A DNA stretch of 41,757 bases from IMG/VR virus record IMGVR_UViG_3300025141_009213, positions 1 to 41,757 of that record. One strand, 5' to 3'. Position numbers and translations under genes: made by a program. The notes beneath the pieces are model-generated. The model saw only the letters and a list, made by a program, of their open reading frames with translations, was not told where the DNA came from and made no database searches. This document shows positions 13,130 through 31,249 of the stretch, one piece after another (the stretch's first letter is position 1; each line of letters starts with the position of its first letter). This DNA is from a virus.

Positions 13130-14278
13130 TTAATATACGAAAGAGTAACCAACGGAAATGAAGTCCTTATTAAGGAGTTCAAATCCAGCAAACAACGACC
13201 AAATCATAATGATAAAACGACTAAAGTCATCGTTATTATTCAAGAGGATCTGTGCGTTATTACCACCCACACCTACGCCAACTGCTTGAGGACCAAAGAA
13301 GATCAACTGAGCAGCACCATAATCAGCAGCACTTGCTGACTCATCGGTAACAATCAAGTTATAGGAAGTCTCAGGCAGGTTTGTTGATTCAAACCAGCGA
13401 ACTCCCTCAAAAAGAAATCCGGTAGGCATCACTGGCTGTCCTGCGACAAAACCAGCTTGACCATAAGCAGGTCCCATTCCTTGATAGAAATTAGCTGAAG
13501 GAGCCAAATTAGGCTGCATCGGATCTACCATCCCAGAACCGGGGTAACGTGCGATCTCGCGGAAGTCAGAGTTCTGACGGAGATGCATCATTGCGGTTGG
13601 ATCCACAATGCAGCGGTAGTAACCATCACTAAAAGTTGGGACGTTGCGCTTACGCATGTCCTTAACAACTTCAAGAAGGTCAGTTTTTACATCAAACTTA
13701 CCAGATTCACCAGAAGCGTAGGTTACGCCGAGGGTTCCGCCGGAACCACCTTTGTTTTTACCACCAGGTAGATAATATCCACCTTGTGTGCTGCTTGCTT
13801 CGCCATTGGCTTCAGCTTTAAGCAGTTCATTAGCGAAGACGCGGTCGCGCCAGCGGCGGTAGTCATCAAGCAGGGTTAGTGAACCAATGCTTTGATGGAA
13901 TACATTCAAATTACCTGTATCAAGCAGCAAACGCTGTGCAGTGATCAGGGTTTCACGAGCCACCTTGAATGTAGAAGGTTGTGCTGTGTCGCGAGTATCT
14001 GCAGGTCCTGTATATTCCCTCAACGTAACAAGAACTTTGTCCTTGACGATATTGCGGGCGCTAGATGTGCCTAGCGTCTGATCAGCAGTACGTTCGCGTG
14101 ACTCCTTAGTGCCTGGTGCTCCCCAGAAACGGTAACGATCTAGTTGAACCGTTTGTCCGGGTTGCTTGGAAAAATCGTGTACAACCACAGGCTCTACCGC
14201 CATCTCAATGATGTAGGCAGGATGCGGGCGGTACAGTTCAGCCCCAAGGAGTTTTGGAAAATCGTTGTCAATCCACAT
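13130..14278 (-). CDS. Major capsid protein (putative, possibly N4 gp56-like)
   Basis: A 382-residue protein. Features fitting a HK97-fold capsid protein include an early segment with extended strands (GQTVQLDRYRFWG), a long helix-rich middle (STFKVARETLITAQRLLLDT, DDYRRWRDRVFANELLKAEA), and a domain with VDPTAMMHLRQNSDFREIA. That last element resembles the segment seen in N4 gp56-like capsid proteins. The length and absence of a protease-cleaved N-terminus also fit. GGAG lies ahead of the ATG. It is followed after a 14-base gap by the putative decoration gene and then a terminator. Capsid identity is likely; the exact family is a guess. Confidence 0.68.
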   Translation of the reverse strand: MWIDNDFPKLLGAELYRPHPAYIIEMAVEPVVVHDFSKQPGQTVQLDRYRFWGAPGTKESRERTADQTLGTSSARNIVKDKVLVTLREYTGPADTRDTAQPSTFKVARETLITAQRLLLDTGNLNVFHQSIGSLTLLDDYRRWRDRVFANELLKAEANGEASSTQGGYYLPGGKNKGGSGGTLGVTYASGESGKFDVKTDLLEVVKDMRKRNVPTFSDGYYRCIVDPTAMMHLRQNSDFREIARYPGSGMVDPMQPNLAPSANFYQGMGPAYGQAGFVAGQPVMPTGFLFEGVRWFESTNLPETSYNLIVTDESASAADYGAAQLIFFGPQAVGVGVGGNNAQILLNNNDDFSRFIIMIWSLFAGFELLNKDFISVGYSFVY

Positions 14279-16226: not shown

Positions 16227-17165
16227 CTACAGATACTCATTTACCTTGTCACTTACTTCTCGTAATGATTTAAGTGCTTTATTCTCTAAAGTCCTTACTC
16301 TGTCACGGCTCATATTAAGGATTTGACCTATGGCTGTCATTGACAAAGGTTCCAAAATCTCTTCACCAATTCCATAACGCATACCGATTACAGCAGCTTG
16401 CATCTCAGGAAGATCTGCTATTAAGCTACGAATATCTTCCTTCACACAGTCCTGCTCAAGCAGCTTGTCTGGCAACTGTGCTTCATCTTCCAACAAATCA
16501 ATTAATGCTGTATCCCTGTTTTCACCTATTTTGATTTCTAAAGAAGTAGGCTGACGAGCCTTGCACATTAAATCCTTGATATCATCTACAGTTAATTCTA
16601 ATTTCTCTGATAGTTGAAAGACAGTTGGCATATAACCATTAAGTTGTGACAGCTCCCTTTGTGCCTTTTTTAGTTTGTTGAGATTCTCTGTGACATGGAT
16701 GGGGAGTCTTATTGCTCTAGACTTCTCTGCGATGGCTCTTGTAATTCCCTGTCGTATCCACCAATAAGCGTATGTAGAAAACTTATAGCCACGACCGGGA
16801 TCAAACTTTTCAACACCACGCACCAGTCCAATTGTTCCTTCTTGGATTATGTCTAGAAGTTCCATATTGCGCTTGGTGTATTTCTTGGCAACTGATACAA
16901 CTAAACGAAGGTTCGCTGTAACCATCCTCTCCTTAGCTTTAACGCCGTCACGAATCTCCCGTTTAAGTTGACGAACGGGTACTTCGCAGGCATCAGCTAA
17001 TCCTTGGTTATCTAGTTGAAGCTCTTTCTTCTGCTCCTCGATTTCCATTAACCGTTGAACTTGACGACCTAGGAGGATTTCTTCGTCATGCTCTAGTAAA
17101 GATACGCGTCCGATATCACGTAAATAAGCACGTACGGAATCGCCTGATGCAGCTGGTTTTGCCAT
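16227..17165 (-). CDS. Sigma-70 family RNA polymerase sigma factor, cyanobacterial group 2 type
   Basis: A 312-residue complete sigma factor without region 1.1. Region 1.2: DSVRAYLRDIGRVSLLEHDE. Region 2: MVTANLRLVVSVAKKY, MELLDIIQEGTIGLVRGVEK, FDPGRGYKFSTYAYWWIRQG (the 2.3/2.4 promoter-melting and -10 reading part). Region 3: LPIHVTENLNKLKKAQREL. Region 4: SMTAIGQILNMSRDRVRTLE (helix-turn-helix for -35). Length and wording match cyanobacterial group 2 sigma factors much better than the short T4 gp55-type late sigma factors of cyanomyoviruses. It presumably redirects host RNA polymerase to phage genes, perhaps via the recurring TAGAATAG/TATAATAG elements. All core elements appear intact. Confidence 0.92.
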   Translation of the reverse strand: MAKPAASGDSVRAYLRDIGRVSLLEHDEEILLGRQVQRLMEIEEQKKELQLDNQGLADACEVPVRQLKREIRDGVKAKERMVTANLRLVVSVAKKYTKRNMELLDIIQEGTIGLVRGVEKFDPGRGYKFSTYAYWWIRQGITRAIAEKSRAIRLPIHVTENLNKLKKAQRELSQLNGYMPTVFQLSEKLELTVDDIKDLMCKARQPTSLEIKIGENRDTALIDLLEDEAQLPDKLLEQDCVKEDIRSLIADLPEMQAAVIGMRYGIGEEILEPLSMTAIGQILNMSRDRVRTLENKALKSLREVSDKVNEYL

Positions 17166-17610: not shown

Positions 17611-18324
17611 CTAATCGGCCCAACTACCTGGCTTAACACGATTAGGCCCTTGTACACCTTGAGGTGTGTGTGGTGCGATCCCTGCGAAACTAGCAGCTTT
17701 TTTCCCTACTACCCCACCTTGACTTCTGTAGTCACGAATATATTTTTTCATATTCTCATCTGAAGCACCTGAACTACGCATATGCTCCAAATCTTTCAAA
17801 CCTATGCCTCTACCACCATGCGCTGAAGCATCATGACTTTCATAATCATATCCTACGTCAGGAGTTTTGCCTCCCTTACGTTTGTTCCACCAATCACCTA
17901 AGTTCTTTCTGTGATCACTACCAGCTAATGCACCAGCTTCACTGTCTTGCATTGTAGCCCACTTAGAAGCTCTTTTACCTACTCTTCCACCACTTGCTTG
18001 GTAATCCCTCATGAAGTTTCTAATGTTCTCATCAGAACCACCTGCTTCCCGTATGTAGTCAAGATCTGCTTGACCGAATCCTTTCCCATCTCCACGCGCT
18101 GATGAATCATAAGCACCGAAGTCAAACATACCCCTATCGCGAGGTGAAGGTCTGTGCATTCCCGCAACTTTGCCAGCCCCTACTTCACGCTCAAGCGTAT
18201 GGGCATCCATCTCGCCTAATTGACTTAATGCACGGCCTCCCCCTTGAGCTTCTACCACTCTTGCTATACGATCTCTTGCGAAATCCTGTGCATATTCTCG
18301 TTGTCCGTTATTTGGATTAGCCAT
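17611..18324 (-). CDS. Repeat-domain virion protein (two copies of a novel ~55-residue domain)
   Basis: Start chosen at the ATG at 18324 (MANPNNGQREYAQDFARDRI), because a TATAATAG motif at 18347-18354 would lie inside the coding region if the in-frame ATG at 18372 were used. The product is 237 residues. After a helical N-terminus it carries two copies of a domain with the pattern FDFG..D.S..G.GKGFG..D...IR..G.S.ENI..F.RDY...GG.VGK.A. They are joined by the linker SEAGALAGSDHRKNLGDWWN. The 342-residue gene on the other side of the portal has the same layout with high identity. The domain function is unknown; the position among portal and packaging genes suggests an internal or connector-associated virion protein. 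Confidence 0.6.
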   Translation of the reverse strand: MANPNNGQREYAQDFARDRIARVVEAQGGGRALSQLGEMDAHTLEREVGAGKVAGMHRPSPRDRGMFDFGAYDSSARGDGKGFGQADLDYIREAGGSDENIRNFMRDYQASGGRVGKRASKWATMQDSEAGALAGSDHRKNLGDWWNKRKGGKTPDVGYDYESHDASAHGGRGIGLKDLEHMRSSGASDENMKKYIRDYRSQGGVVGKKAASFAGIAPHTPQGVQGPNRVKPGSWAD

Positions 18325-18346
18325 TTTTACATTAATGTTGTTATTA

Positions 18347-18354
18347 CTATTATA
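18347..18354 (-). promoter_or_regulatory. TATAATAG, candidate -10 element that decides the start at 18324
   Basis: Minus-strand TATAATAG, 23 bases before the ATG at 18324. The spacing matches the other motif-to-start distances in this window. Confidence 0.5.
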
Positions 18355-18388
18355 GGGGGATTGAATTAACAACCCCCACTAATAATTA

Positions 18389-19375
18389 TCAGAGATCCTG
18401 AACGAGCATTTTTGTTTGTAGTGCTCCTTGAGGTGCTTGTGCAAGGAATTTCCATGCATCCTCAGGACGGCTATCCATCAGATAGGAAAGACCACCCCAG
18501 AAGTCATTTGACTCATTCACTTGACGACCTGGTGTAGGCATATCCATTTCAGGGCGTTGGAAGTTTGAGGGAACTTGAGTGTTCCTCTCTTGCTGCTGGA
18601 TTTCAGCTGCAAACTGAGCACGGGCTTCATACTGTTGACGTGCTTGTGTTTCAGCAGCAGTCTCAGTCGGGTATGGGCCTCTAGGACCGTAGAAATCGTT
18701 GACGTAATCAGCAAGAACGTCAGGGTGAGTCAGCATCAAGTTCATTGCTGAACGCTCTTCACCTGCTGCTTCAAGCATCAGGGACTGATACTGACCACGC
18801 TGTACTTGCTCAACAAGAGCGTCTTCTACAGCACAAGCGTACTGGTTTAGAAGAACTGGTGCTTCAGCGCCGAAGTGCTGGAGAACTTCAAGACTTTGAT
18901 CGCTTACCTGACTTAGATACGCGTCCCTTACCTCTGCTTGGGGCTGACCCTGCATTGGGGCCTGCTGCGTATAAGCCGGGGTTGAAACTCGGGGACTGTA
19001 GGTCTGGGCTTGCGAATACTGGACTGGTGCCGCCTGCGGTGCCGAAGCCCACGCTGCCGGTGTAGCTATCTGGGGCGTCGGTGTTTGGTAAGCCGAGGGT
19101 GACACCTGGGCTTGGGATGGGCTGCTTGTATTCAAACTGGCGCTGAGTGCCTGGAACGCCTGCTGCCATGGATTGCCCTGTTGAGCCGAAGCCTGCTGGA
19201 CCTGGGCCGGTGCCTGGTAAGCCTGAGGTGTTGCTGTTTGGTAACTCTGATCCAACACCGGGGAGGCTGATTGTTGGCTCATCCCGGGTTGGACGGCCAA
19301 GCTTTGCTCTGACGCGATCGGCATCGGAGAGCTTGCTTGGACCGAGGTCATCACTGCTTGGTTTGTACCTTCCAC
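18389..19375 (-). CDS. Scaffold-like protein overlapping the portal gene
   Basis: A 328-residue protein from a GTG at 19375, preceded by AAGGAG with a ten-base gap. Residues 1-145 are Gln/Pro/Ala/Ser-rich and disordered (SPVLDQSYQTATPQAYQAPA), and the C-terminal half is helical and charged (SLEVLQHFGAEAPVLLNQYA, YEARAQFAAEIQQQERNTQV, RPEDAWKFLAQAPQGAL). A disordered region plus helical C-terminus, directly downstream of the portal, is typical of phage scaffolding proteins, though here the capsid gene lies elsewhere. The first 488 bases are shared with the 3' end of the portal gene in another frame. An alternative ATG at 18955 would almost remove the overlap, but the strong Shine-Dalgarno site favours 19375. 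Confidence 0.6.
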   Translation of the reverse strand: MEGTNQAVMTSVQASSPMPIASEQSLAVQPGMSQQSASPVLDQSYQTATPQAYQAPAQVQQASAQQGNPWQQAFQALSASLNTSSPSQAQVSPSAYQTPTPQIATPAAWASAPQAAPVQYSQAQTYSPRVSTPAYTQQAPMQGQPQAEVRDAYLSQVSDQSLEVLQHFGAEAPVLLNQYACAVEDALVEQVQRGQYQSLMLEAAGEERSAMNLMLTHPDVLADYVNDFYGPRGPYPTETAAETQARQQYEARAQFAAEIQQQERNTQVPSNFQRPEMDMPTPGRQVNESNDFWGGLSYLMDSRPEDAWKFLAQAPQGALQTKMLVQDL

Positions 19376-21134
19376 TGTAACTTAACTCCTTACGTAAAAA
19401 TTCAAGTGATCTATATAGGAATCCTGTGATATCAAGATTCGGGTCAGATGCCAGAGGTAAGTCTGGTGTCTGTGGGTGCGGTAACTGATAAAGTTGACCG
19501 AGTAATCCGATAAACGAATTTAATGATTGCTGTGTCTGTTGAACCATTCTGAAGGGATAACCGCTTAACATTGCGGCTCTCTCTTCATCAGTTTTGCCAG
19601 GGAATAGATACTTAAGTGCTTCAACAGAATCCACACCTAATTCTTGAAGGTTGCGTACGACGATACTGTTATTTAGAATATCGTCTGTACTTTCTTCAAA
19701 AACTTCACCCTCCCAGCGCCATGCAACTTTAGTGCTGCCATCTGGGATAAGTCCAACTACTCCTTGAGGAATATCTCCTGAATCAAGTGTAGCACGAATT
19801 TGTTCTTCCCTTAGATTGATGAATTTCTGATACTTCGTTAGGAACTTTTCATTATCTACTTCAAACCTTTCTTCATCACCTTCGTAGTCTTCCATTAATG
19901 GAGGAGTGGGTTCTTGTAAACCAATAATTGATGCAAATGATTTATTGAATAACTCTTCTTCATGACGTATCATCATTGCGAATAGCTTACACAAACCATA
20001 GTCAAATAACGCTCTTGCTTTCTTTTCTGCTGTTGCTGCAACACGACCATATAAAGTTTTGATCTCATAAGCAGTGGAAGCTGTACCAATATCGATATCA
20101 TCAACACCACCTAGTGCTAGACGAATTTCACTTCGATACTGCTTGACGTACATATTCTGATCACCTGAAACACTATCAGGAGTTAAGTAACTAACACGAT
20201 CAGTAGGTTCAAGGTTTGCAATCACCCTTGGTACTTTAATTTGTCCATCTAAACTAGAAGCACCGCCGAACGGTTGAGTGGATTTAGTGCTGCCTCTGCC
20301 TATGGCCGCAAATCCTGCCTGAGAGCTGATTGTAGGCTTAAACGATTGCTCATCCCCAGCTTCAATAATGTCCTGCTTAGGGCGGCTAGAAACAAGCGTG
20401 GGGTTGCCGAAGAACTTCATGTTCTTGCGGATATTATGCACTAGCTCATCGTGGTACAGAATCTGATTCGATAACCACTCAAATTCCCCATTTCCACTTG
20501 CTTCACCTGTACAATCCATATGATTGTAAACTTCAACTGCTGGAATGAATCCCAAACTATTTGTAAGTACTTCTGTTGAACCAGGCATCGTCATTGGTGA
20601 CTGACCCATTTCATTCTCAAAATCTATCTTTTCATTTGATATAGTCTGCTCGATCCTGTCTTTATATACTTTTAGTCGAATATATTTTGTCCTACCTCCA
20701 CGACCATTTACTTGAGCGAACTGATCTATTGCATTAGGCTCACGTACATTGAAACTGTATATCAGCACCACGCTTTCTAACTCACTGTTTTGATTCCGAT
20801 AAGCACGGTAACTATCTTTAGGGAAATAAAGGAGTTGGTACGTGTCACCGTTTGGCCTGAAGTAAAATAAACCTTGTCCATCACATAAGAAATAATCGAT
20901 GATGCTATCTAGCTTCATCTCCAACATATTATGTTCACATATGTTTCTTAGAAAATCCTTCCTTTTGCCAAAGGAATCCTGATCTGCATAGAACTCAATA
21001 CCTCTACGTAACATGAACATCCGCATCTGCGCTAGATGTGATGAAATAATCATCGTATCTACTGAAAGATCGCCCCTTCTTTCTTTAGCGGCAGTAAGTA
21101 ATGGTGATAGCTTACTTTGTGACATAGAGTTCAT
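18888..21134 (-). CDS. Portal protein with long Gly/Pro-rich C-terminal extension
   Basis: A 748-residue protein. The first ~570 residues have portal-like features: a helical start, GQGLFYFRPNGDTYQLLYFP, the long strand-turn region with YIRLKVYKDRIEQTISNEKI, GFIPAVEVYNHMDC, and a stretch of DEL/HNIRKNMKFFGNPTLVSS characteristic of the stem/wing region. Helices VAATAEKKARALFDYGLCKL and EKFLTKYQKFINLREEQIRA follow. The last ~170 residues are Gly/Pro/Ser-rich, end in a basic tail (RGKGRVSKSGKRSKS), and are encoded in DNA that is also read as the start of the scaffold-like gene. It lies next to the large terminase block, the usual place for a portal. AAAGGAAAAG precedes the start. Confidence 0.72.
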   Translation of the reverse strand: MNSMSQSKLSPLLTAAKERRGDLSVDTMIISSHLAQMRMFMLRRGIEFYADQDSFGKRKDFLRNICEHNMLEMKLDSIIDYFLCDGQGLFYFRPNGDTYQLLYFPKDSYRAYRNQNSELESVVLIYSFNVREPNAIDQFAQVNGRGGRTKYIRLKVYKDRIEQTISNEKIDFENEMGQSPMTMPGSTEVLTNSLGFIPAVEVYNHMDCTGEASGNGEFEWLSNQILYHDELVHNIRKNMKFFGNPTLVSSRPKQDIIEAGDEQSFKPTISSQAGFAAIGRGSTKSTQPFGGASSLDGQIKVPRVIANLEPTDRVSYLTPDSVSGDQNMYVKQYRSEIRLALGGVDDIDIGTASTAYEIKTLYGRVAATAEKKARALFDYGLCKLFAMMIRHEEELFNKSFASIIGLQEPTPPLMEDYEGDEERFEVDNEKFLTKYQKFINLREEQIRATLDSGDIPQGVVGLIPDGSTKVAWRWEGEVFEESTDDILNNSIVVRNLQELGVDSVEALKYLFPGKTDEERAAMLSGYPFRMVQQTQQSLNSFIGLLGQLYQLPHPQTPDLPLASDPNLDITGFLYRSLEFLRKELSYSGRYKPSSDDLGPSKLSDADRVRAKLGRPTRDEPTISLPGVGSELPNSNTSGLPGTGPGPAGFGSTGQSMAAGVPGTQRQFEYKQPIPSPGVTLGLPNTDAPDSYTGSVGFGTAGGTSPVFASPDLQSPSFNPGLYAAGPNAGSAPSRGKGRVSKSGKRSKS
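19386..19391 (-). promoter_or_regulatory. Shine-Dalgarno AAGGAG inside the portal gene
   Basis: Minus-strand AAGGAG, ten bases before the GTG at 19375. It supports independent translation of the scaffold-like gene from within the portal coding sequence. Confidence 0.6.
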
Positions 21135-21159
21135 TCTTGCTTTTCCTTTTATTTAAATA

Positions 21160-22188
21160 CTAGCCGATACTGTCAATCTTATCCATAAATTTATCATAAT
21201 CTAAATCAGGTGCCTCGACAGGCTTAAGCGGATCTGGCCATACAAACTCTGGAGGCTGTCTACCAGTCCATTGATCTCCAAAAGTTTCAGTCCTACTAAT
21301 GTCTGAGTGAGCACCATGATACAGGGGACGTTCATGTACCCGCTGATCTAATGCCGCCCTATCTATTACAGGGTTTGCTCTACTCGCAGCTATATACTGT
21401 TGAGCTGTGTCAGATCCACTTGTCTTGTCCATAAAGTCACCAGCAAATCTTTTTACTAATCCTAATCCAGCAGGTTTATTGCCGCTGAGTCCCGCATTAA
21501 TCGTCGCGTTAGTGACATTGGCGTTGAAGTCTTTGTTGCTGTTCAAAAGATTTCTTGGGCCGCTTGTTGCTGATATACTATTAGGCCCTTTTACACCTTT
21601 AGGTGCCCATGGCGCGATGCCCGCGAAACTAGCAGCCTTTTCTCCTACTACACCACCTTTGCTTCTGTAGGAACGGATATATTTTTTCATGTTTTCATTT
21701 GAAGCACCTGAATTACGCATATGCTCCAAATCTCTAATACCTATGCCTCTACCACCATGCTTTGAAGCATCATGGCTTCCATAATCATATTTTATTTCTT
21801 TAGCTTTACCTCCCTCACGTTTGTTCCACCAATCACCCAAAAACTTTTGTGCATCACTACCAGCTAATGCACCAGCTTCACTGTCTTTCATATCGTAAAT
21901 ACCTGCTGCTCTCTTACCAACCTTTCCACCACTGGCTTGATAATCTCTTGCGAATTTACCGATATTTTCTTCTGACGCACCTTGCGCTCTCATATGCCTA
22001 ACATCAGCTAAGCCAAACCCTTTCCCATCACCATACATTGATGCATCATGATCACCGAAGTCATACATCTTCCTTCTCCCTTCAGGACGTGGTGCTCTTC
22101 CCGGTGTTGGTGCCGGGTTTGGTGAGTTCTTAGGAATCCCACCGATTGGAACATCATCTGTGTAGGGTCTTGTGTCAATCTTGGTCAT
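21160..22188 (-). CDS. Repeat-domain virion protein, paralogue of the 17611-18324 protein
   Basis: A 342-residue protein. Two copies of the ~55-residue domain lie at residues 42-96 (YDFGDHDASMYGDGKGFG, then DYQASGGKVGKRAA) and 134-190 (YDYGSHDASKHGGRGIG, then YRSKGGVVGEKAASFAG). They are separated by a linker with SEAGALAGSD and LGDWWNK. Domain and linker match the 237-residue paralogue closely, but the N-terminus (TPGRAPRPEGRRK) and the C-terminal 150 residues (ending in a Pro/Asp-rich segment, EAPDLDYDKFMDKIDSIG) are unrelated. It lies between large terminase and portal genes. Function unknown. Confidence 0.6.
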   Translation of the reverse strand: MTKIDTRPYTDDVPIGGIPKNSPNPAPTPGRAPRPEGRRKMYDFGDHDASMYGDGKGFGLADVRHMRAQGASEENIGKFARDYQASGGKVGKRAAGIYDMKDSEAGALAGSDAQKFLGDWWNKREGGKAKEIKYDYGSHDASKHGGRGIGIRDLEHMRNSGASNENMKKYIRSYRSKGGVVGEKAASFAGIAPWAPKGVKGPNSISATSGPRNLLNSNKDFNANVTNATINAGLSGNKPAGLGLVKRFAGDFMDKTSGSDTAQQYIAASRANPVIDRAALDQRVHERPLYHGAHSDISRTETFGDQWTGRQPPEFVWPDPLKPVEAPDLDYDKFMDKIDSIG

Positions 22189-22202
22189 ATCTAGTATTCC
22201 TA

Positions 22203-23741
22203 CTACATAATTAAGCTATCACTATTGTAGTCTAATTGTAGACACCCTCTTCTCAGTAATCCACCCATAGTAAGTACCATTGAATCAACAGCATCATCGT
22301 GAGCTGAATGGCCAAAATTGAGTAACTCTTCTTCTAGTACATCCCACTTTCTCCATTTATTCCAAGCTACTTTACGATTCTCATATAAACCAAGCACACC
22401 CCTAAGTCTTGCTAATTTATCTCCTTTAAATCCCTTCACTGGTGAGCATGACAGGTTATACAAAGCACGATCATCGAACATGATACGTTTAAAGTCACCT
22501 TCAAATGAAGTTTGATAAGCTACTGCCTCAGGCCAAATAATGCACGGTGACATTGTTGGGAAATATTGCCCTTCATCATTTTCAGCTAATATATTCCAAT
22601 CAGCTAGCATCTCACACAACGTATCCATCTTCTCGATGTTACCCATGGTTCGATTACGCCTTTGATCTATTAAATAAATCTTTCCACCCTTAATTCCACC
22701 TAATGTCATTACTGTCCAGTCGTTCTTCTCACTGAGTCCAGCACTAAGGTCAATTCCTACTCCTATGCAGTCATATTCTTCAGGTACTTCTGTTTTGCAA
22801 ATCAATTCCGGCGATATTCCTACATCAGCTGTCCTTACTGCAGTATTTAGATACTGATACGCGAAAGCTACACGATCTTCTGCCTTACGTTCATTTAAAT
22901 ACTTCATTGACCAAAACTCAGGCCAATATGAACGTTGCCTACCTTCTTTATCAGTTAATACTGCTTTCTGGATAACTTGTCTCCAATTATTCTTTGGTAC
23001 AAATAACGTAGCGTGTATATCATCAAAATGGAAACGTGTTCCAAGACAGATGGCACGTGCACCCTGGAACATAGTTGGAGCAATGACGTTCGTCCATGTA
23101 TTTTCCATTTCACGTCGAATGTCTGGATTATTAATTGACCCAGCTGACTTAATCGGGTCATCAATAAGCACCAGCTGTGATCGTTTAGATGTGATTGCTC
23201 CTTTTAGACCTCCACAAGCAACTGTGAATGCTTCCTCTCCACTGGTATCGATTCCAGCGAATTCATAATCAATACTCCAGTATTCATCTGAACGCCTGAT
23301 CCTTGATAGCCGAACCATCGGGAATATTTCCCTGTATTTACTGCTCGTTAATATCCCTTTGATTGTTGCTGACTTCGCTCTCGCAATATCTACCATATAG
23401 CTGATGTATAGCACTCTCAGCATTCGCTTTGCAGCTGCATGTCGGCCAATCATCCAAGCTGCAAATAAACCAAGCACGGTACTTTTGGCAGATCCACGTG
23501 GTGCCAGAATTGCTGTATTGGGACCAGCTATTCCTAATAGGCATTCACTATCTTCTCCGCTACATAACTCCGCATGCCACTCCAGCATATGCTTTGCTGG
23601 AGGTTTTCCTAGATATGTGCAGAATACTTTGAAGTCATCCCTAGCTTGTAATACTTGTTCTGAGGGTGGCTTGACGGTTACTTTCGTTGCCGTCATTAAA
23701 GCTGATCTTTTGTACGCTAATGCTACACTTGAGCCTGCCAT
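22203..23741 (-). CDS. terL: Terminase large subunit (DNA packaging ATPase/nuclease)
   Basis: A 512-residue packaging motor. Walker A is APRGSAKST (about residue 80), Walker B is LVLIDDP (about 190), and the coupling motif with CLGTRFHFDD follows. The RNase H-like nuclease half has the first catalytic Asp in GVGIDLSAGLSEKNDWTVM and an acidic motif near the C-terminus (GHSAHDDAVDSMVLTMGGLL). It converts concatemeric DNA into packaged genomes, docking on the portal. All expected motifs are intact. A TATAAATCAGTATA element lies directly ahead of the ATG. Confidence 0.95.
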   Translation of the reverse strand: MAGSSVALAYKRSALMTATKVTVKPPSEQVLQARDDFKVFCTYLGKPPAKHMLEWHAELCSGEDSECLLGIAGPNTAILAPRGSAKSTVLGLFAAWMIGRHAAAKRMLRVLYISYMVDIARAKSATIKGILTSSKYREIFPMVRLSRIRRSDEYWSIDYEFAGIDTSGEEAFTVACGGLKGAITSKRSQLVLIDDPIKSAGSINNPDIRREMENTWTNVIAPTMFQGARAICLGTRFHFDDIHATLFVPKNNWRQVIQKAVLTDKEGRQRSYWPEFWSMKYLNERKAEDRVAFAYQYLNTAVRTADVGISPELICKTEVPEEYDCIGVGIDLSAGLSEKNDWTVMTLGGIKGGKIYLIDQRRNRTMGNIEKMDTLCEMLADWNILAENDEGQYFPTMSPCIIWPEAVAYQTSFEGDFKRIMFDDRALYNLSCSPVKGFKGDKLARLRGVLGLYENRKVAWNKWRKWDVLEEELLNFGHSAHDDAVDSMVLTMGGLLRRGCLQLDYNSDSLIM

Positions 23742-23746
23742 TTAGT

Positions 23747-23760
23747 TATACTGATTTATA
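23747..23760 (-). promoter_or_regulatory. TATAAATCAGTATA element before the terminase gene
   Basis: Minus-strand TATAAATCAGTATA ends six bases before the ATG at 23741 and matches 14373-14386 exactly. TATAAAT resembles T4-type late -10 sequences. Confidence 0.4.
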
Positions 23761-23772
23761 CTCAGTCTAACG

Positions 23773-24054
23773 TTAGGATCTCCTTAAATTGGTCTTCCTC
23801 TCGGCAATTCGCTGTGCAGCCCTGTTTTTTGCTTTAGAAATTTTTTGACTTCTTTTTACCTGATTCCTTGTGATCTCATGAACAACTCCCATATCTCTAG
23901 CGTACTGCTCTGCTTCTAACTGCCTTGCATTTCCGTAACTACCTAATGACTGCATTTGAGGCATCCGTTTAGTTAATGCACTCTCAAGCCTTACAGAATT
24001 AATTGATGTTGGTACCAATTCTGGTAACTTTGGAAACTCTATTGAACTAGACAT
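23773..24054 (-). CDS. Small basic protein of the packaging operon
   Basis: A 93-residue protein with a strongly basic C-terminal helix (RNQVKRSQKISKAKNRAAQR, then KTNLRRS), suggesting nucleic-acid binding. It overlaps the upstream gene's stop by one base and precedes the large terminase. It could be a packaging accessory factor, but no family is recognised. Confidence 0.55.
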   Translation of the reverse strand: MSSSIEFPKLPELVPTSINSVRLESALTKRMPQMQSLGSYGNARQLEAEQYARDMGVVHEITRNQVKRSQKISKAKNRAAQRIAERKTNLRRS

Positions 24055-24593
24055 TATGTACTTGTCAACTCACTATATACTTTGGCCCAGATTGCATTAA
24101 TTGAATTTTCAATCGGTTCTGCAAACTGAGGGTCGTCCTTAAAGATTGCTGTAAGTTCTCGCATTACACGATCAGCACCTGCCAAAATTAAGCCACGCTT
24201 ATCTGTCGTACGATTCATACGATCGCTTGTCTCGATGTGACTACGGAGTTCTTTCTCTAATGCTGCCAAACGTGCTGCACCATTATCACCTTTGATCTCT
24301 CCACTATTAACTGCCATACGTAGATCTTGAATATCACTATGCAAAGCAGCGATCTCGCTGTTGAGAATCTCACGACGGTTCAATTTCTTGTACTTCAGTT
24401 TTACCCAACGAGCTAAGTCATTGAATGTTCCTTCGTACTTCAGGATTCCTGCATAAACCCAAATCTCAATGATTGATGGTGTGACTTCTGCAAACTCCTT
24501 AAAGTCCTCTGAATCAGCAGCAGGTAACGTATCTAACCACTTATCAACAATAGTTAGATATACCTTACTGTTTGAAGCCATTTTAGTTGTCAT
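24054..24593 (-). CDS. Possible terminase small subunit
   Basis: A 179-residue protein. A helical N-terminus with a helix-turn-helix-like stretch (EVTPSIIEIWVYAGILKYEG, FNDLARWVKLKYKKLNRREI) leads into a long predicted coiled-coil (LNSEIAALHSDIQDLRMAVN, ARLAALEKELRSHIETSDRM), then a C-terminal helix pair. DNA-binding head plus oligomerising coil, and position two genes before the large terminase, fit a small terminase subunit. No signature motif confirms it, so it remains a position-based call. Start and upstream stop overlap (TGATG). Confidence 0.5.
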   Translation of the reverse strand: MTTKMASNSKVYLTIVDKWLDTLPAADSEDFKEFAEVTPSIIEIWVYAGILKYEGTFNDLARWVKLKYKKLNRREILNSEIAALHSDIQDLRMAVNSGEIKGDNGAARLAALEKELRSHIETSDRMNRTTDKRGLILAGADRVMRELTAIFKDDPQFAEPIENSINAIWAKVYSELTST

Positions 24594-27061
24594 CAGAATG
24601 ACCTCGCTAGCCTTCTACTGCTTCGTCCTTGATCCACGTACCGCTTAGCATCAAGTCTACTTTGATGACTCAGGGTGTTTCTTGTGTCATCACCTTGTGC
24701 AGTTACAAGTCTGACATTTTGATCACCTTGAGTTCCAATAGTCCTACGCTGCTCACTCCCTTCTGTTGCAAGTCTGTTGCTATCAGTAGCTCGTGTTTCT
24801 TCTCCTGTTGTGCGTAATCTGTTGGAATCAGTAGCACGTGTCTCTTCACCAGTAGTTCTGACTCCAGCTCGTTGCTCTTGTCCTGATGTGCGTAACTGAT
24901 TGGTATCAGTTGCTCGCTGTTCAAATGCTCTTGTCCTTTCTAAAGCTTGAGCTGCATCACTTTGAGTACCTATAGTTGCTCTTTGTTCTTCACCTGATGT
25001 ACGTAACTGATTGGTGTCTGTAGCACGTGTCTCTGCACCAGTGGTTCTAATCCCTGCACGACTCTCTTCTCCAGTAGTTCTGATTCCAGCTCGTTGCTCT
25101 TGACCTGAAGTACGCAACTGATTGGTATCAGTTGCCCGAGTTTCTAATCCTCTTACCCTTTCTAGTGCTTGAGCTGCAGCACTTTGAGTACCAATAGTTG
25201 CACGTGTTTCTTCTCCAGTAGTTCTAATCCCTGCACGACTCTCTTCTCCAGTAGTTCTAATCCCTGCACGACTCTCTTCTCCAGTAGTTCTAATCCCTGC
25301 ACGACTCTCTTCACCTGAAGTACGTAACTGATTAGTGTCTGTAGCACGTGTTTCTTCGCCTGAAACTCTCATCCCTGCACGTTGCTCTTGTCCTGAAGTA
25401 CGTAACTGATTCGTATCAGTTGCTCGCTGTTCTTGGCCAGTAGTTTTTATTTTATTACTATCAATTGCACGTGTTTCTGTACCAGTTGCGAGAATTCTAT
25501 TGGAGTCAGTTAATCGATCTTGCTCACCTTCAGTGATTCTCTGCAATCTATTTTGCTGACCAGTTTCTCCAATAGTTGCACGATGATCTACTCCAGTTGC
25601 TTCTAACATCGCAACATCACGACCATGCTGATTACCAGCAAACTTATTTTGTAGGTCATACTGCATGCCCATTGAGCCCAGACCTTGTTCATACTGTTTC
25701 TGCATGAGTGAGTCTGTATTCCGTAGCTCCAAATCAGCACCCTGCGTCATTGTACTTTGAGCTAATTGAGTCTGCTTCTCTGCCATCTGAGTAGCTAATG
25801 TGCTATCAAATCCAGATTGAATCATATTAGCGGCAAATGTATTCTTCATTGCATTACCAGCTGCATCATTCTCTCCTGGCTGGTAATTATAGAATTGATC
25901 CATAATCCCTTGGAAGTTGAATAAGCCTTTGTCTACTGATGTCTTTCCAGTAGCTTGTCCACTATTCTTATTACCAGATGTCTGTCCAGTAGCTTGTCCA
26001 CTATTCTTATTACCAGATGTCTGTCCAGTAGCTTGTCCACTATTCTTATTACCAGCGGTTGACCATGTTGATGACTGCTTACCGTAACTCGGATTAACTC
26101 CTGCGTATTTTGCCGCCGCAGGGCCTACCACTCCTCCCTTATTACTATAATTTGTAACGTACTGTTTAATGGCATTTGGAGTAAATCCTTGTGACACCAA
26201 TGTATCTATATCCTGCTGACCAATCCCTTCTCCGCCTACATTATCAGGATTGAAGTCATTAAGCACATTGGATGTAGCAGAGTTTCCATAATTGGCTGCT
26301 ACACCAGCATACTTAGCGGCTTTTTCACCAACAATCCCACCATCCGCACTATACGATTTAATATAATTGCTCACTTCATTCTGAGTTAACCCTTTTCCTA
26401 ATAACGCATCAATATCCTTTTGTCCGATCCCCTCTCCACCTACTTGATTTGGTTTAAAGTTTTTGATTATTTCTTGATTAGCATCACTCTTAGTATTGCT
26501 ATTAGATGTGGAGTTATTTATATTAGCCCAATAATTATAAATAGAATTGCTATCTGCCTGAGCTGTAGATGAATTACTTGTAGGTTGAGGAGCTTTAGCA
26601 GCTGGGGCTCGTGTAGGTTGAGGAGCTTTAGCAGCTGGGGCTCGTGTAGGTTGAGGAGCTGTAGCAGTTGGGGCTTGTGTATGTTGACTTGCATAGTCTT
26701 GTGCGGCGGGTCCTACTGTTCCACTGAAGTTACGAATGTACTCTGATATCTCATTATCACTGGCACCTTGCCCTTTTAAGTAATCAATATCAACCTTCCC
26801 CATCGCATTCTCATTTTTAGGAGCTTGAGTATTACTTCGTTCAAAATCTCTAGCTGCGTTACCTACTGTTCCCTTGAACTCACGGATATATTCAGCAATA
26901 TCATAATCACTGGCACCTTGTTTTTTTAGGTGATCGATATCTTTACGGCCCATGGCATTCCCTGAATCACCATATTGCCTTGGATCAAATCCACGAAAGT
27001 CATAACGCTCACGCGGAGCCTGATGCTGTCTTGGATCAAAGTTATTGAAGTTAAATCCCAT
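24593..27061 (-). CDS. Large repeat-domain protein with hendecad-repeat C-terminus
   Basis: An 822-residue protein. Four diverged copies of the ~55-residue domain shared with the 17.6 and 21.2 kb proteins lie at about residues 20-73, 84-124, 200-254 and 268-322 (e.g. GGEGIGQKDIDALLGKGLT, YIKSYSADGGIVGEKAAKYAG). Between and after them are PQPTRAPAAKA repeats (11 residues) and GNKNSGQATGQTS repeats (13 residues). Then comes DQFYNYQPGENDAAGN, a motif also present in the 36.4 kb protein. The C-terminal half (about 480-810) consists of 11-residue units such as TTGEESRAGIR and TDTNQLRTSGQ, expected to form a long right-handed coiled coil. It may be an internal virion or fibrous protein. Function unknown. 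Confidence 0.6.
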   Translation of the reverse strand: MGFNFNNFDPRQHQAPRERYDFRGFDPRQYGDSGNAMGRKDIDHLKKQGASDYDIAEYIREFKGTVGNAARDFERSNTQAPKNENAMGKVDIDYLKGQGASDNEISEYIRNFSGTVGPAAQDYASQHTQAPTATAPQPTRAPAAKAPQPTRAPAAKAPQPTSNSSTAQADSNSIYNYWANINNSTSNSNTKSDANQEIIKNFKPNQVGGEGIGQKDIDALLGKGLTQNEVSNYIKSYSADGGIVGEKAAKYAGVAANYGNSATSNVLNDFNPDNVGGEGIGQQDIDTLVSQGFTPNAIKQYVTNYSNKGGVVGPAAAKYAGVNPSYGKQSSTWSTAGNKNSGQATGQTSGNKNSGQATGQTSGNKNSGQATGKTSVDKGLFNFQGIMDQFYNYQPGENDAAGNAMKNTFAANMIQSGFDSTLATQMAEKQTQLAQSTMTQGADLELRNTDSLMQKQYEQGLGSMGMQYDLQNKFAGNQHGRDVAMLEATGVDHRATIGETGQQNRLQRITEGEQDRLTDSNRILATGTETRAIDSNKIKTTGQEQRATDTNQLRTSGQEQRAGMRVSGEETRATDTNQLRTSGEESRAGIRTTGEESRAGIRTTGEESRAGIRTTGEETRATIGTQSAAAQALERVRGLETRATDTNQLRTSGQEQRAGIRTTGEESRAGIRTTGAETRATDTNQLRTSGEEQRATIGTQSDAAQALERTRAFEQRATDTNQLRTSGQEQRAGVRTTGEETRATDSNRLRTTGEETRATDSNRLATEGSEQRRTIGTQGDQNVRLVTAQGDDTRNTLSHQSRLDAKRYVDQGRSSRRLARSF
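25211..25309 (-). repeat. 33-bp tandem repeat (three perfect copies) in the hendecad region
   Basis: Three direct copies with a 33-base period, each encoding one 11-residue unit TTGEESRAGIR. They belong to a much longer, more diverged 33-base-periodic region at about 24620-25500. Confidence 0.85.
25947..26056 (-). repeat. 39-bp tandem repeat, three copies
   Basis: Copies begin at 25947, 25986 and 26025 and encode GNKNSGQATGQTS units between the domain repeats and the GENDAA motif. Confidence 0.85.
26582..26680 (-). repeat. 33-bp tandem repeat, three copies
   Basis: Copies begin at 26582, 26615 and 26648 and encode Pro/Ala-rich AAKAPQPTRAP units that act as a linker between the second and third domain copies. 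Confidence 0.85.
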
Positions 27062-27163: not shown

Positions 27164-28237
27164 ATGCTATTGACTTTAATGCTACTTACTTTTGATGTGT
27201 CAAAACTTCCTACAATAGATACAAGTAATTACTCATATAATATGTCTCGTTTTGCTGCTGCTGGTCAAGTTGTTTCTAATGAAGCACTGAATGCATTTAA
27301 CAGTGTACTTAACACTAGCCCTGACTATGCTGCTCTACAGATGGAGGCTATGAAAAATAAAGCGGCTAAGGAGATTGTATCTAATAAAGTGGAGAGTGAA
27401 TTATTTAAAGATGCTATTCAGTCTATAGCTGAACGTAAATCTGATGATATACGAATCAAAAGCAACCTTGAATTGTTAGGTAAAGGTCCAAAACAGAAGA
27501 TGGCTGGTAAACTAGCACTAATGGGATCCCTTATAGCTGAAGCTGCTATTAAACCAAAGAAAGTAGATTTACCTAATAACATTCCTTTTGATAGATCTGC
27601 TGATATAGCTAAAGCTCAAGCAGCGATAGATGCTTCTACTGAGAAAATAGATGCACTCAAAGCCCTAATTCTACAATCTAAAACTACTGGAGATGTACCT
27701 ACTAATAACGGTACTCCTTCAACTCCTGTCTCTGTTAGTACTACTCCTTCAACTCCTGTCTCTGTTAGTACTACTCCTTCAACTCCTGTCTCTGTTAGTA
27801 CTACTCCTTCAGATGGTAGTGCTATTACATCTTGGGATCAAGCATATAATCTTGCTAAAGCTACAGGAGCTAAATTCCCTCAATTAGTAGCAGCTCAATG
27901 GGCTCATGAATCTGCATATGGTACTGCTTTAGGTGGATCTCATAATTATTTTGGTATGAAATCTTTGCCAGGTCAAGGTAATAATAGCCCTACGCATGAA
28001 TACTCTAATGGAAAACCATATAACACAAATGCTGACTTCTTGAATTTCAATTCAGCGAAAGATGCTTTTGAAACGCTTAACAAATGGTGGCATGATGATT
28101 ATAAAAACTTCTCTGGTGTATCTCAAAATACCAATTCGGCATCTGCAGCGGCTCAACAGTTACAAGCACAGAAATATGCTACTGATCCTGGATATGCAAA
28201 TGCCCTGATTCGTATCATGGGCGAGCATGGTTATTGA
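27164..28237 (+). CDS. Cell-wall hydrolase with GH73/FlgJ-like glucosaminidase domain
   Basis: A 357-residue protein from the ATG at 27164; an ATG at 27242 (MSRFAAAGQ) is a good alternative start, since the first residues MLLTLMLLTF are not a convincing signal peptide. Residues 26-190 are helical and shared with the next gene (ALNAFNSVLNTSPDYAALQM, DASTEKIDALKALILQSK). A linker of three STPVSVSTTP repeats follows. The C-terminal 139 residues match glucosaminidases that cut glycan strands of peptidoglycan: PQLVAAQWAHESAYG with the likely catalytic Glu249, GSHNYFGMKSLPG, and a C-terminal GYANALIRIM. It is probably a virion-associated or lysis muralytic enzyme. It is transcribed opposite to its neighbours. 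Confidence 0.78.
   Translation: MLLTLMLLTFDVSKLPTIDTSNYSYNMSRFAAAGQVVSNEALNAFNSVLNTSPDYAALQMEAMKNKAAKEIVSNKVESELFKDAIQSIAERKSDDIRIKSNLELLGKGPKQKMAGKLALMGSLIAEAAIKPKKVDLPNNIPFDRSADIAKAQAAIDASTEKIDALKALILQSKTTGDVPTNNGTPSTPVSVSTTPSTPVSVSTTPSTPVSVSTTPSDGSAITSWDQAYNLAKATGAKFPQLVAAQWAHESAYGTALGGSHNYFGMKSLPGQGNNSPTHEYSNGKPYNTNADFLNFNSAKDAFETLNKWWHDDYKNFSGVSQNTNSASAAAQQLQAQKYATDPGYANALIRIMGEHGY
27721..27810 (+). repeat. 30-bp tandem repeat forming the hydrolase linker
   Basis: Three perfect copies of a 30-base unit encoding STPVSVSTTP. They start exactly where sequence identity with the second hydrolase gene ends. Confidence 0.9.
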
Positions 28238-30039: not shown

Positions 30040-30539
30040 CAGATCAATCCCCCTTTAAGTAGCGCAAGCGCTTCTTCTAGTTTACGTTGTTCTGGAGTTT
30101 TCTTATCTCCAAATAGCCATTGCAATCCATCACTTCCCATTTTTCCAATACCTGCACCGATAGATGCTGTTAGTGGAGAGAGCACTCCAGCTCCCATGAA
30201 GGCACCAATAGTGCCACCAGTTGCCATTGCTGCTGTATCCATTGCTTTATTACCAAAGCTTTCATCACCAGTAATGATGTCAGCTACATCCATTACGTTC
30301 CCAGCAACGCTCAATCCGGGTGCCAGTCTTGAAGCACCTCTAATGAGTCCTTTACCAGCAAACCTGCCTACTGTTTTAGGCATTTTGCCTAATGTAAGAG
30401 CATTAAGAGTTTTACCTGTCTCTGCCATTACTCCCGCTTGAGTTGGTTTACCACCTAGCCATTGAAGGGCTTGACCAAATGTTATTCCTTCTACTTGTGC
30501 AAGCTTCAAGGCTAAATCATTAAGACTATGACCAATCAT
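30039..30539 (-). CDS. Gly/Ala-rich membrane-active virion protein
   Basis: A 166-residue protein. After a helical start (SLNDLALKLAQVEGITFGQA) it is dominated by a long Gly/Ala/Met-rich hydrophobic stretch (TAAMATGGTIGAFMGAGVLS, then TASIGAGIGKMG) followed by a charged C-terminal helix (TPEQRKLEEALALLKGG). A glycine-rich hairpin of this type can span a membrane. It overlaps both neighbours. It is possibly ejected into the host envelope during infection; no family recognised. Confidence 0.55.
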   Translation of the reverse strand: MIGHSLNDLALKLAQVEGITFGQALQWLGGKPTQAGVMAETGKTLNALTLGKMPKTVGRFAGKGLIRGASRLAPGLSVAGNVMDVADIITGDESFGNKAMDTAAMATGGTIGAFMGAGVLSPLTASIGAGIGKMGSDGLQWLFGDKKTPEQRKLEEALALLKGGLI

Positions 30540-31249
30540 TTTAATGCTCCTGCTAGGGCGTTCTTAGCTTCCATTCTTGTAACACGGTTGTCCAGTTGTT
30601 GATAACCACGGACAAGCAGGGCGATCAGCTGGTTTATATCTATTCTATACATTCCTGATTCACTATCAACATAAGTTGCATCAGGCATCACATCTTTGTA
30701 CTCCTGAGCAATAAACCCATAGTGCATCCTGCTCGGTTCACTTGTGAATTCATCCTTGTAGTAGAAACTTACTGGATTCAATTCTCGTAACATTAATGTC
30801 ACGTCATCCAGCCTTTCTATTGAATGCTTTGTACGCTCATCGCAAGCCATTAGCAATGGAAGACCGGCACTAACAATCTTCCCTATCCCACCCCACATTC
30901 CAGCCTCCTTACTTGCTCCGGCCCTCTTCCCTGCTGCCTCCGCCTGAGCTTCCGCCATTTTCTGTGCTCCTACTACATCCCCATATGCTTTAAGAAATGC
31001 GCCTTTTGTAGAAGCTTCAATACCCCAATTTTCTATCTGCTCCCTGGCATCTAACTCATTCTGTAAACCATAGATAGCTCCAGGCTTTGGCCGTTTACCA
31101 GCTAATCCTGAATAGTTACCAGTAATACTACCAGCGGCGGCGGCATAGGGGCCAAGATTTATTTGAGTAGGTACTGGGATCTTAGTAAAATCTGGCGGCA
31201 CTAATCCGAAACCAGTGTTTTGCCTTGTAGAAAAATTAGTTGCCATCAC
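30536..31249 (-). CDS. Protein with C-terminal S74-type intramolecular chaperone domain
   Basis: A 237-residue protein. An N-terminal ~85 residues (NTGFGLVPPDFTKIPVPTQI) are followed by a helical Ala-rich stretch (AEAQAEAAGKRAGASKEAG), then C136-D-E-R-T-K141-H-S-I, ELNPVSFYYKDE, MHYGFIAQEYKDVMPD and YRIDINQLIALLVRGYQQLD. These are the order and motifs of the S74 peptidase/chaperone domain that trimerises phage fibres and then cuts itself off. In the family the first position is the nucleophilic Ser of S-D-x-R-x-K; here it is Cys, with Lys141 kept. It overlaps the downstream gene by four bases. Confidence 0.8.
   Translation of the reverse strand: MMATNFSTRQNTGFGLVPPDFTKIPVPTQINLGPYAAAAGSITGNYSGLAGKRPKPGAIYGLQNELDAREQIENWGIEASTKGAFLKAYGDVVGAQKMAEAQAEAAGKRAGASKEAGMWGGIGKIVSAGLPLLMACDERTKHSIERLDDVTLMLRELNPVSFYYKDEFTSEPSRMHYGFIAQEYKDVMPDATYVDSESGMYRIDINQLIALLVRGYQQLDNRVTRMEAKNALAGALK

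Follow-up and report, generated by a model that had tools for sequence, protein, structure and literature searches.

The 41,757-bp virus contig of record IMGVR_UViG_3300025141_009213, referred to below as the window, encodes three proteins of 237, 342 and 822 residues, here named A, B and C, which together carry eight copies of a small repeat domain. The preliminary description of this DNA, made without database searches, had noted two, two and four copies in these proteins, a linker common to the two shorter ones and an interleaving of the three genes with the terminase and portal genes, and had proposed a duplicated family acting in head or portal assembly. In the ORF (open reading frame) list of the window, A, B and C are all encoded on the minus strand, and the gene order on this strand agrees with the interleaving: C, a 179-residue ORF, a 93-residue ORF, the terminase large subunit (TerL), B, the portal protein, an ORF overlapping the portal gene, and A. 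The genes and domain copies are as follows; the coordinates of the copies take in a few padding residues.

17611-18321, minus strand: protein A, 237 residues from ATG, two domain copies, 3' of the portal gene and its overlapping ORF (the longest frame of A begins at TTG 18372)
17935-18132, minus strand: domain copy A1, from the profile search
17662-17856, minus strand: domain copy A2, from the profile search
17869-17946 (approximate), minus strand: linker of A common with B, DSEAGALAGSD...LGDWWNKRKGG
21160-22188, minus strand: protein B, 342 residues, two domain copies, stopping 25 nucleotides short of the portal start
21874-22071, minus strand: domain copy B1, kept between close relatives with a nonsynonymous substitution rate (dN) of 0.07
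21601-21795, minus strand: domain copy B2, AlphaFold2 model with a predicted local distance difference test score (pLDDT) of 82.6
24593-27061, minus strand: protein C, 822 residues, four domain copies and then a long repetitive helical rod
26819-27010, minus strand: domain copy C1, from the profile search
26669-26842, minus strand: domain copy C2, with a weak N-terminal edge
26285-26479, minus strand: domain copy C3, from the profile search
26081-26275, minus strand: domain copy C4, from the profile search
18888-21134, minus strand: portal protein, 748 residues, phrog_20475, 45% identity to S-EIV1
22203-23741, minus strand: TerL, phrog_38 at an E value of 2e-69

The domain is about 50-60 residues long and mainly helical, with the core [YF][DN]F..hG.g.hG..Dh..L...G.s..pI..y.......hG..A. 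The eight copies are homologous and represent one real domain. A and B are 69% identical across 173 residues, the linker included, and C matches both A and B in BLASTP. Among the hold-out profiles, the one built on the four A and B copies detects C with an E value of 7e-35; the one built on the four C copies detects A (7e-26) and B (2e-21), and a profile of C3 and C4 alone still detects A (5e-20). Because these profiles cross-find one another's proteins and the best shuffled or reversed decoys reach only about 0.2-0.3, chance is excluded as the source of the similarity. The copy numbers, the common linker and the duplicated family of the preliminary description are thus all borne out, and the profile search found the domain in none of the remaining window ORFs.

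The domain is closely linked to the portal gene. A portal-alignment scan gave at least 542 loci, of which the best 80 were taken as portal relatives. Among these, iterated profiles detect the domain in 26, and in nearly every case the carrier is the ORF directly 5' of the portal gene. A count over 71 portal-centred loci, which hold 1000 other ORFs, gives 22 carriers; it controls within 10 kb only for the favouring of portal neighbours by portal-centred sampling. The carriers stand at position -1 relative to the portal in 17 of the 22 cases, at -2 in three, and at -3 and -5 in one each, the last two being upstream of the terminase; none stands downstream of the portal. The linkage proposed for the window therefore extends well beyond it, and the domain was found in S-EIV1-like relatives, cyanopodoviruses and Krakvirus. 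In the window, B falls within one to two genes upstream of the portal; A and C do not. Four copies, as in C, were seen only in the window phage and the near-identical contig L009. The nearly constant position directly before the portal suggests that the domain belongs to a minor, fast-changing part of the DNA-delivery machinery.

A search of 592 cyanobacterial genomes gave no domain match, yet the same profile, as a positive control, finds the domain on two phage contigs misbinned in metagenome-assembled genomes (MAGs); within what was searched, the domain is therefore phage-specific. In tblastn searches against phage isolates, A had no match and the N-terminal part of C matched only Krakvirus, and a scan of 84,980 species genomes for the A/B tandem returned no relative. 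What is new here is that the domain is phage-specific and tied to portal genes.

The linkage holds across two portal types. Krakvirus S39C11 protein BAQ94486 (AP013549) carries two domain copies, and its gene abuts a portal gene of the T7 type. Residues 1-35 of the Krakvirus carrier (P0001, AP013549 13047-14930) also contain an EF-hand-like loop, DANKDGKISSDE, ahead of the two copies. Furthermore, a scan for the FGH[KA]DY subtype ('FGHKDY'), which was not portal-centred and used loci with 4 kb flanks, found proteins of 162-164 residues that abut T7-type portals in relatives of S-RIP1, P-SSP7 and Syn5; the portal of one such locus, L187, matches phrog_449 at 5e-180. Wherever the locus of a T7-type carrier includes a portal gene, the carrier gene overlaps or abuts the start of that gene. 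Homology between the subtypes was tested in both directions, with profiles having no member in common. The FGH profile finds A at 2.7e-4, B at 1.7e-3, C at 1.2e-3 and Krakvirus at 8e-6 (best decoy 1.5), the non-FGH profile finds FGH proteins at 2.8e-13 to 0.13 (best decoy 0.34), and hhalign gives 94.9% between the subtypes, whereas 60 column shuffles reach 1.8% at most. The alignment of the FGH subtype spans 32 columns and covers only the first half of the domain, so the second half of this subtype may differ from that of the main type. The annotated portal-preceding proteins of P-SSP7, Syn5, P60, 9515-10a, S-TIP37, P-GSP1, S-CBP4, S-RIP1 and CRP-125 showed no significant domain match.

At their C-termini, the carriers L187, L193, L189b and Krakvirus have the pattern LxI...G..N[IV] or a variant of it, as does T7 gp7.3, and the portal-preceding proteins of Syn5, P60, S-TIP37 and S-RIP1 close with a similar pattern. 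Its background of 28 in 6807 ORFs is descriptive only, because the pattern was drawn up after these ends had been viewed. The literature on gp7.3 in cyanopodoviruses yielded nothing specific. The position of the T7-type carriers at about the gp7.3/gp6.7 slot, most of them with a gp7.3-like C-terminus, points to a minor portal or tail-channel protein, possibly an ejected one. Of the assembly role put forward in the preliminary description, the association with the portal thus stands, while the evidence leads away from a general head-assembly factor.

Both B and C join the domain to a distinct C-terminal part.

21160-21333, minus strand: C-terminal tail of B, found in 54 portal-preceding proteins whether or not they carry the domain
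24593-25654, minus strand: repetitive rod of C; its repeats (RTTGEESRAGI, ATDTNQLRTSGQEQR) are spaced at 11 and 15 residues

The tail profile matches B and 54 portal-preceding relatives (best decoy 1.4), and a strict domain match is present in 14 of the 54. Since two relatives with portals 88% identical (L012 and L013) keep the tail and have no domain, the domain is a module that can be gained or lost while its anchor stays conserved. Relatives of the rod in L206-L221 keep the rod, and the domain is absent. In one phage pair, the ratio of nonsynonymous to synonymous substitution rates (dN/dS) is 0.76 for B versus 0.11 for the portal and 0.14 for TerL, and copy B1 is the most conserved part of B at the amino-acid level. 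Other features were observed in the same slot: many portal-preceding ORFs of L012-L075 start with a short [KR]MAG motif and have an Asn-rich middle (GDNN..N..DNSIRNYGGD.R.F.Y), and in a close relative (L010, 2110-3294) the N-terminus of B is extended by a segment, absent from window B, that includes three in-frame repeats of the RKSDPTQDW type.

In agreement with the preliminary description, which knew no named domain of this pattern, the domain belongs to none of the known families searched. Pfam-A gave no match above the curated cut-off for the window proteins, for 27 carriers or for 35 single copies searched at E values up to 10, PHROGs gave none that was both significant and covered the domain, and the PDB sequence search returned nothing significant, only helix-G-s-helix lookalikes (BurrH, designed repeats, IcmE and the CBL UBA). 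The T7 scaffolding protein family PF05396 reaches 17.7 bits with the Krakvirus copies against a cut-off of 27.1 and does not match the window copies. In one AlphaFold2 model for each subtype (pLDDT 82.6 and 77.9), the order is the same: bridge, helix, helix, bridge and helix. Foldseek and VIA searches with these two models gave no significant fold match (Z at most 3.0), which for so small a domain is not evidence of a new fold.

The domain might nevertheless be a far outlier of an old superfamily, either a degenerate EF-hand pair or a UBA-like three-helix module. EF-hand identity was considered because the models predict bridges at two loops; the short bridges before helix 1 and after helix 2 may pair, as between EF-hand loops. 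The EF-hand-like loop at the N-terminus of the Krakvirus carrier also favours such a relation, as does the UBA match of a single member at 0.12. None of the 35 members matches an EF-hand model, the acidic metal-ligand positions are not conserved, and the fold searches contain no such match; EF-hand identity has no sequence support and was set aside, and descent from either superfamily appears unlikely to us. A convergent origin, in which the subtypes are not homologous and have only a generic helix-G-s-helix motif in common, would agree with the lookalikes from the PDB, which are of just this kind, and with the short alignment of the FGH subtype. This we regard as very improbable, given that independent profiles cross-find far above decoys with matches in the same genomic slot, that the 592 genomes, rich in helix-turn-helix proteins, yielded no match, and that the hold-out profiles already disfavour it for the copies of A to C. 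The net charge of the copies spans -3 to +12 with no common sign, which disfavours DNA binding through a positively charged domain.

We tentatively favour, with somewhat less than even confidence, the reading that A, B and C are minor components of the virion, located at the portal or in the tail channel, and function in the manner of T7 gp7.3 and gp6.7, with the domains as binding heads. In the T7 cryo-EM (cryogenic electron microscopy) structure, gp6.7 forms a bridge from portal to core, and gp7.3 is anchored in the nozzle by six C-terminal loops (residues 84-98), with its remaining part around the DNA end within the channel; both proteins are ejected (PMC11784390). By analogy, minor proteins whose genes adjoin the portal gene would bear the domain as a mobile head at their N-terminus. 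A C-terminal tail would hold these carriers in place at the portal or in the tail channel of the virion, the heads would bind adjacent proteins of the channel or core or else the end of the DNA, and the carriers would exit with or ahead of the DNA at infection. In the window phage, the head was multiplied: in tandem copies, in a B-like gene duplicate (A) beyond the portal, and on the rod-like C, which carries four of them and whose gene precedes the terminase genes. Presence in the virion, location in the channel, ejection and the binding partner of the domain are each what we infer from this analogy. The interleaved order, with C preceding the terminase genes, B preceding the portal and A following it, would also suit proteins that act solely in head or portal assembly or in packaging and are absent from the mature virion; such proteins would nucleate the incorporation of the portal or couple it to the terminase, with their domains recruiting portal, scaffold or terminase. 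In T7, a gp7.3 mutant gives non-infectious particles, and gp7.3 has been proposed as a nozzle-assembly scaffold (PMC11784390). However, the T7 proteins encoded in the comparable position form part of the virion and are ejected, and fast evolution is less expected of a partner of the slowly evolving portal and terminase, which makes a pure assembly role rather unlikely. The high dN/dS, the modular gain and loss at the N-terminus and the lack of a homologue in the cyanobacterial genomes searched could alternatively indicate a host-facing effector, a variable late protein whose gene neighbours that of the portal and whose domains bind to some target in the host, either after delivery or at a late stage of infection, for example in counter-defence. 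A strict slot before two unrelated portal types is untypical of such cargo, however, and the B tail is conserved in 54 relatives, so that we hold this to be distinctly improbable.

Several observations weigh against a portal or tail-channel role. Neither A nor C lies directly before the portal. Many close relatives have the B tail without a detectable domain and S-EIV1 has no detectable copy; the domain is therefore not essential to the slot. Three FGH carriers (L184, L190 and L192) have no portal nearby, in loci that are incomplete. Furthermore, T7 gp7.3 and gp6.7 lack the repeat domain, gp7.3 is small and mostly unresolved, and the gp7.3-like C-terminus is not found in window A (...GSWAD), B (...KIDSIG) or C (...RLARSF), which for this reason are not filed as gp7.3 family members. 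We know of no virion proteomics or structure for any carrier found here.

A further-reaching proposal, possible but doubtful in our estimate, is that portal/tail-channel proteins of phages with unrelated portal types share the domain as a recombining head module, and that its swapping and multiplication on a conserved anchoring tail change the channel plug and perhaps delivery or recognition. The S-EIV1 and T7-like cyanophage groups are common in the sea (PMC5332604). The small portal-vertex proteins of these cyanophages are largely unknown, and a searchable, portal-linked domain offers a handle on them. Through a single genomic slot it connects two unrelated phage groups, and in packaging and ejection machinery that is otherwise conserved it marks the partner that evolves fast.

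Two ORFs lie next to these genes.

18389-19375, minus strand: portal-overlapping ORF in the +1 frame, with a GTG start and an AAGGAG Shine-Dalgarno sequence
24054-24593, minus strand: 179-residue ORF between C and TerL, by its position a putative terminase small subunit

The portal-overlapping ORF shares about 490 nucleotides with the portal gene. A downstream ORF in the same +1 frame is present in 63 of 63 relatives tested (among L009-L090), with an open overlap of 450-610 nucleotides in 62 and of 77 in one contig, and a conserved GGAG-type Shine-Dalgarno sequence with a GTG or ATG start was seen in 19 of 20 relatives inspected. Portal substitutions at the three codon positions are 0.079/0.039/0.358 upstream versus 0.138/0.056/0.108 inside the overlap; the third position loses its freedom there, as it should where both reading frames are constrained. 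The corresponding frame of S-EIV1 spans 59284-60264, with only the last 134 codons annotated. A long dual-coding overlap between the portal and the next gene is thus conserved in S-EIV1-like phages; the product of the overlapping ORF may, by position, be a scaffold.

Elsewhere in the window, an HK97-type major head protein is encoded at 13130-14278. A phage-encoded sigma-70 factor with regions 1.2, 2, 3 and 4 lies at 16227-17165 (minus strand), and because its nearest cellular genes are those of marine picocyanobacteria (about 60%), the host is likely a cyanobacterium. The two misbinned contigs, both relatives of the window phage, carry this sigma factor (80%) together with the domain; they were assigned to a Crocinitomicaceae MAG (L094/L174, PACT01000002.1) and a Blastopirellula MAG (L095/L175, NZVR01000054.1). 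A glucosaminidase endolysin with TTPSTPVSVS repeats (27164-28237, plus strand) is divergent from C, and a small protein with an S74 endosialidase-chaperone domain (30536-31249, minus strand) lies away from the large fibre genes.

Among known systems, the S-EIV1-like cyanophages (KJ410740 and IMG/VR relatives) have in common with the window phage the portal family and the order TerL-X-portal, X carrying the B tail in 54 loci. The difference lies in the domain, of which X has zero to two copies, and S-EIV1 itself none detectable. By comparison, Krakvirus S39C11 differs from the window in its T7-like genome and portal and in the C-terminus of its carrier (...LSILSGLGTNSNPLAGLQLA), which is annotated as hypothetical only. 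The small helical domains of the EF-hand and UBA type resemble the models in size and in their helix-turn-helix-loop-helix layout, while the repeat domain has no significant sequence or fold match to them and lacks metal ligands. In T7, gp6.7 and gp7.3 are encoded in a comparable neighbourhood just upstream of the portal, with an HNH gene between 7.3 and 8, and the T7-type carriers are, like these two proteins, small, fast-changing and modular.

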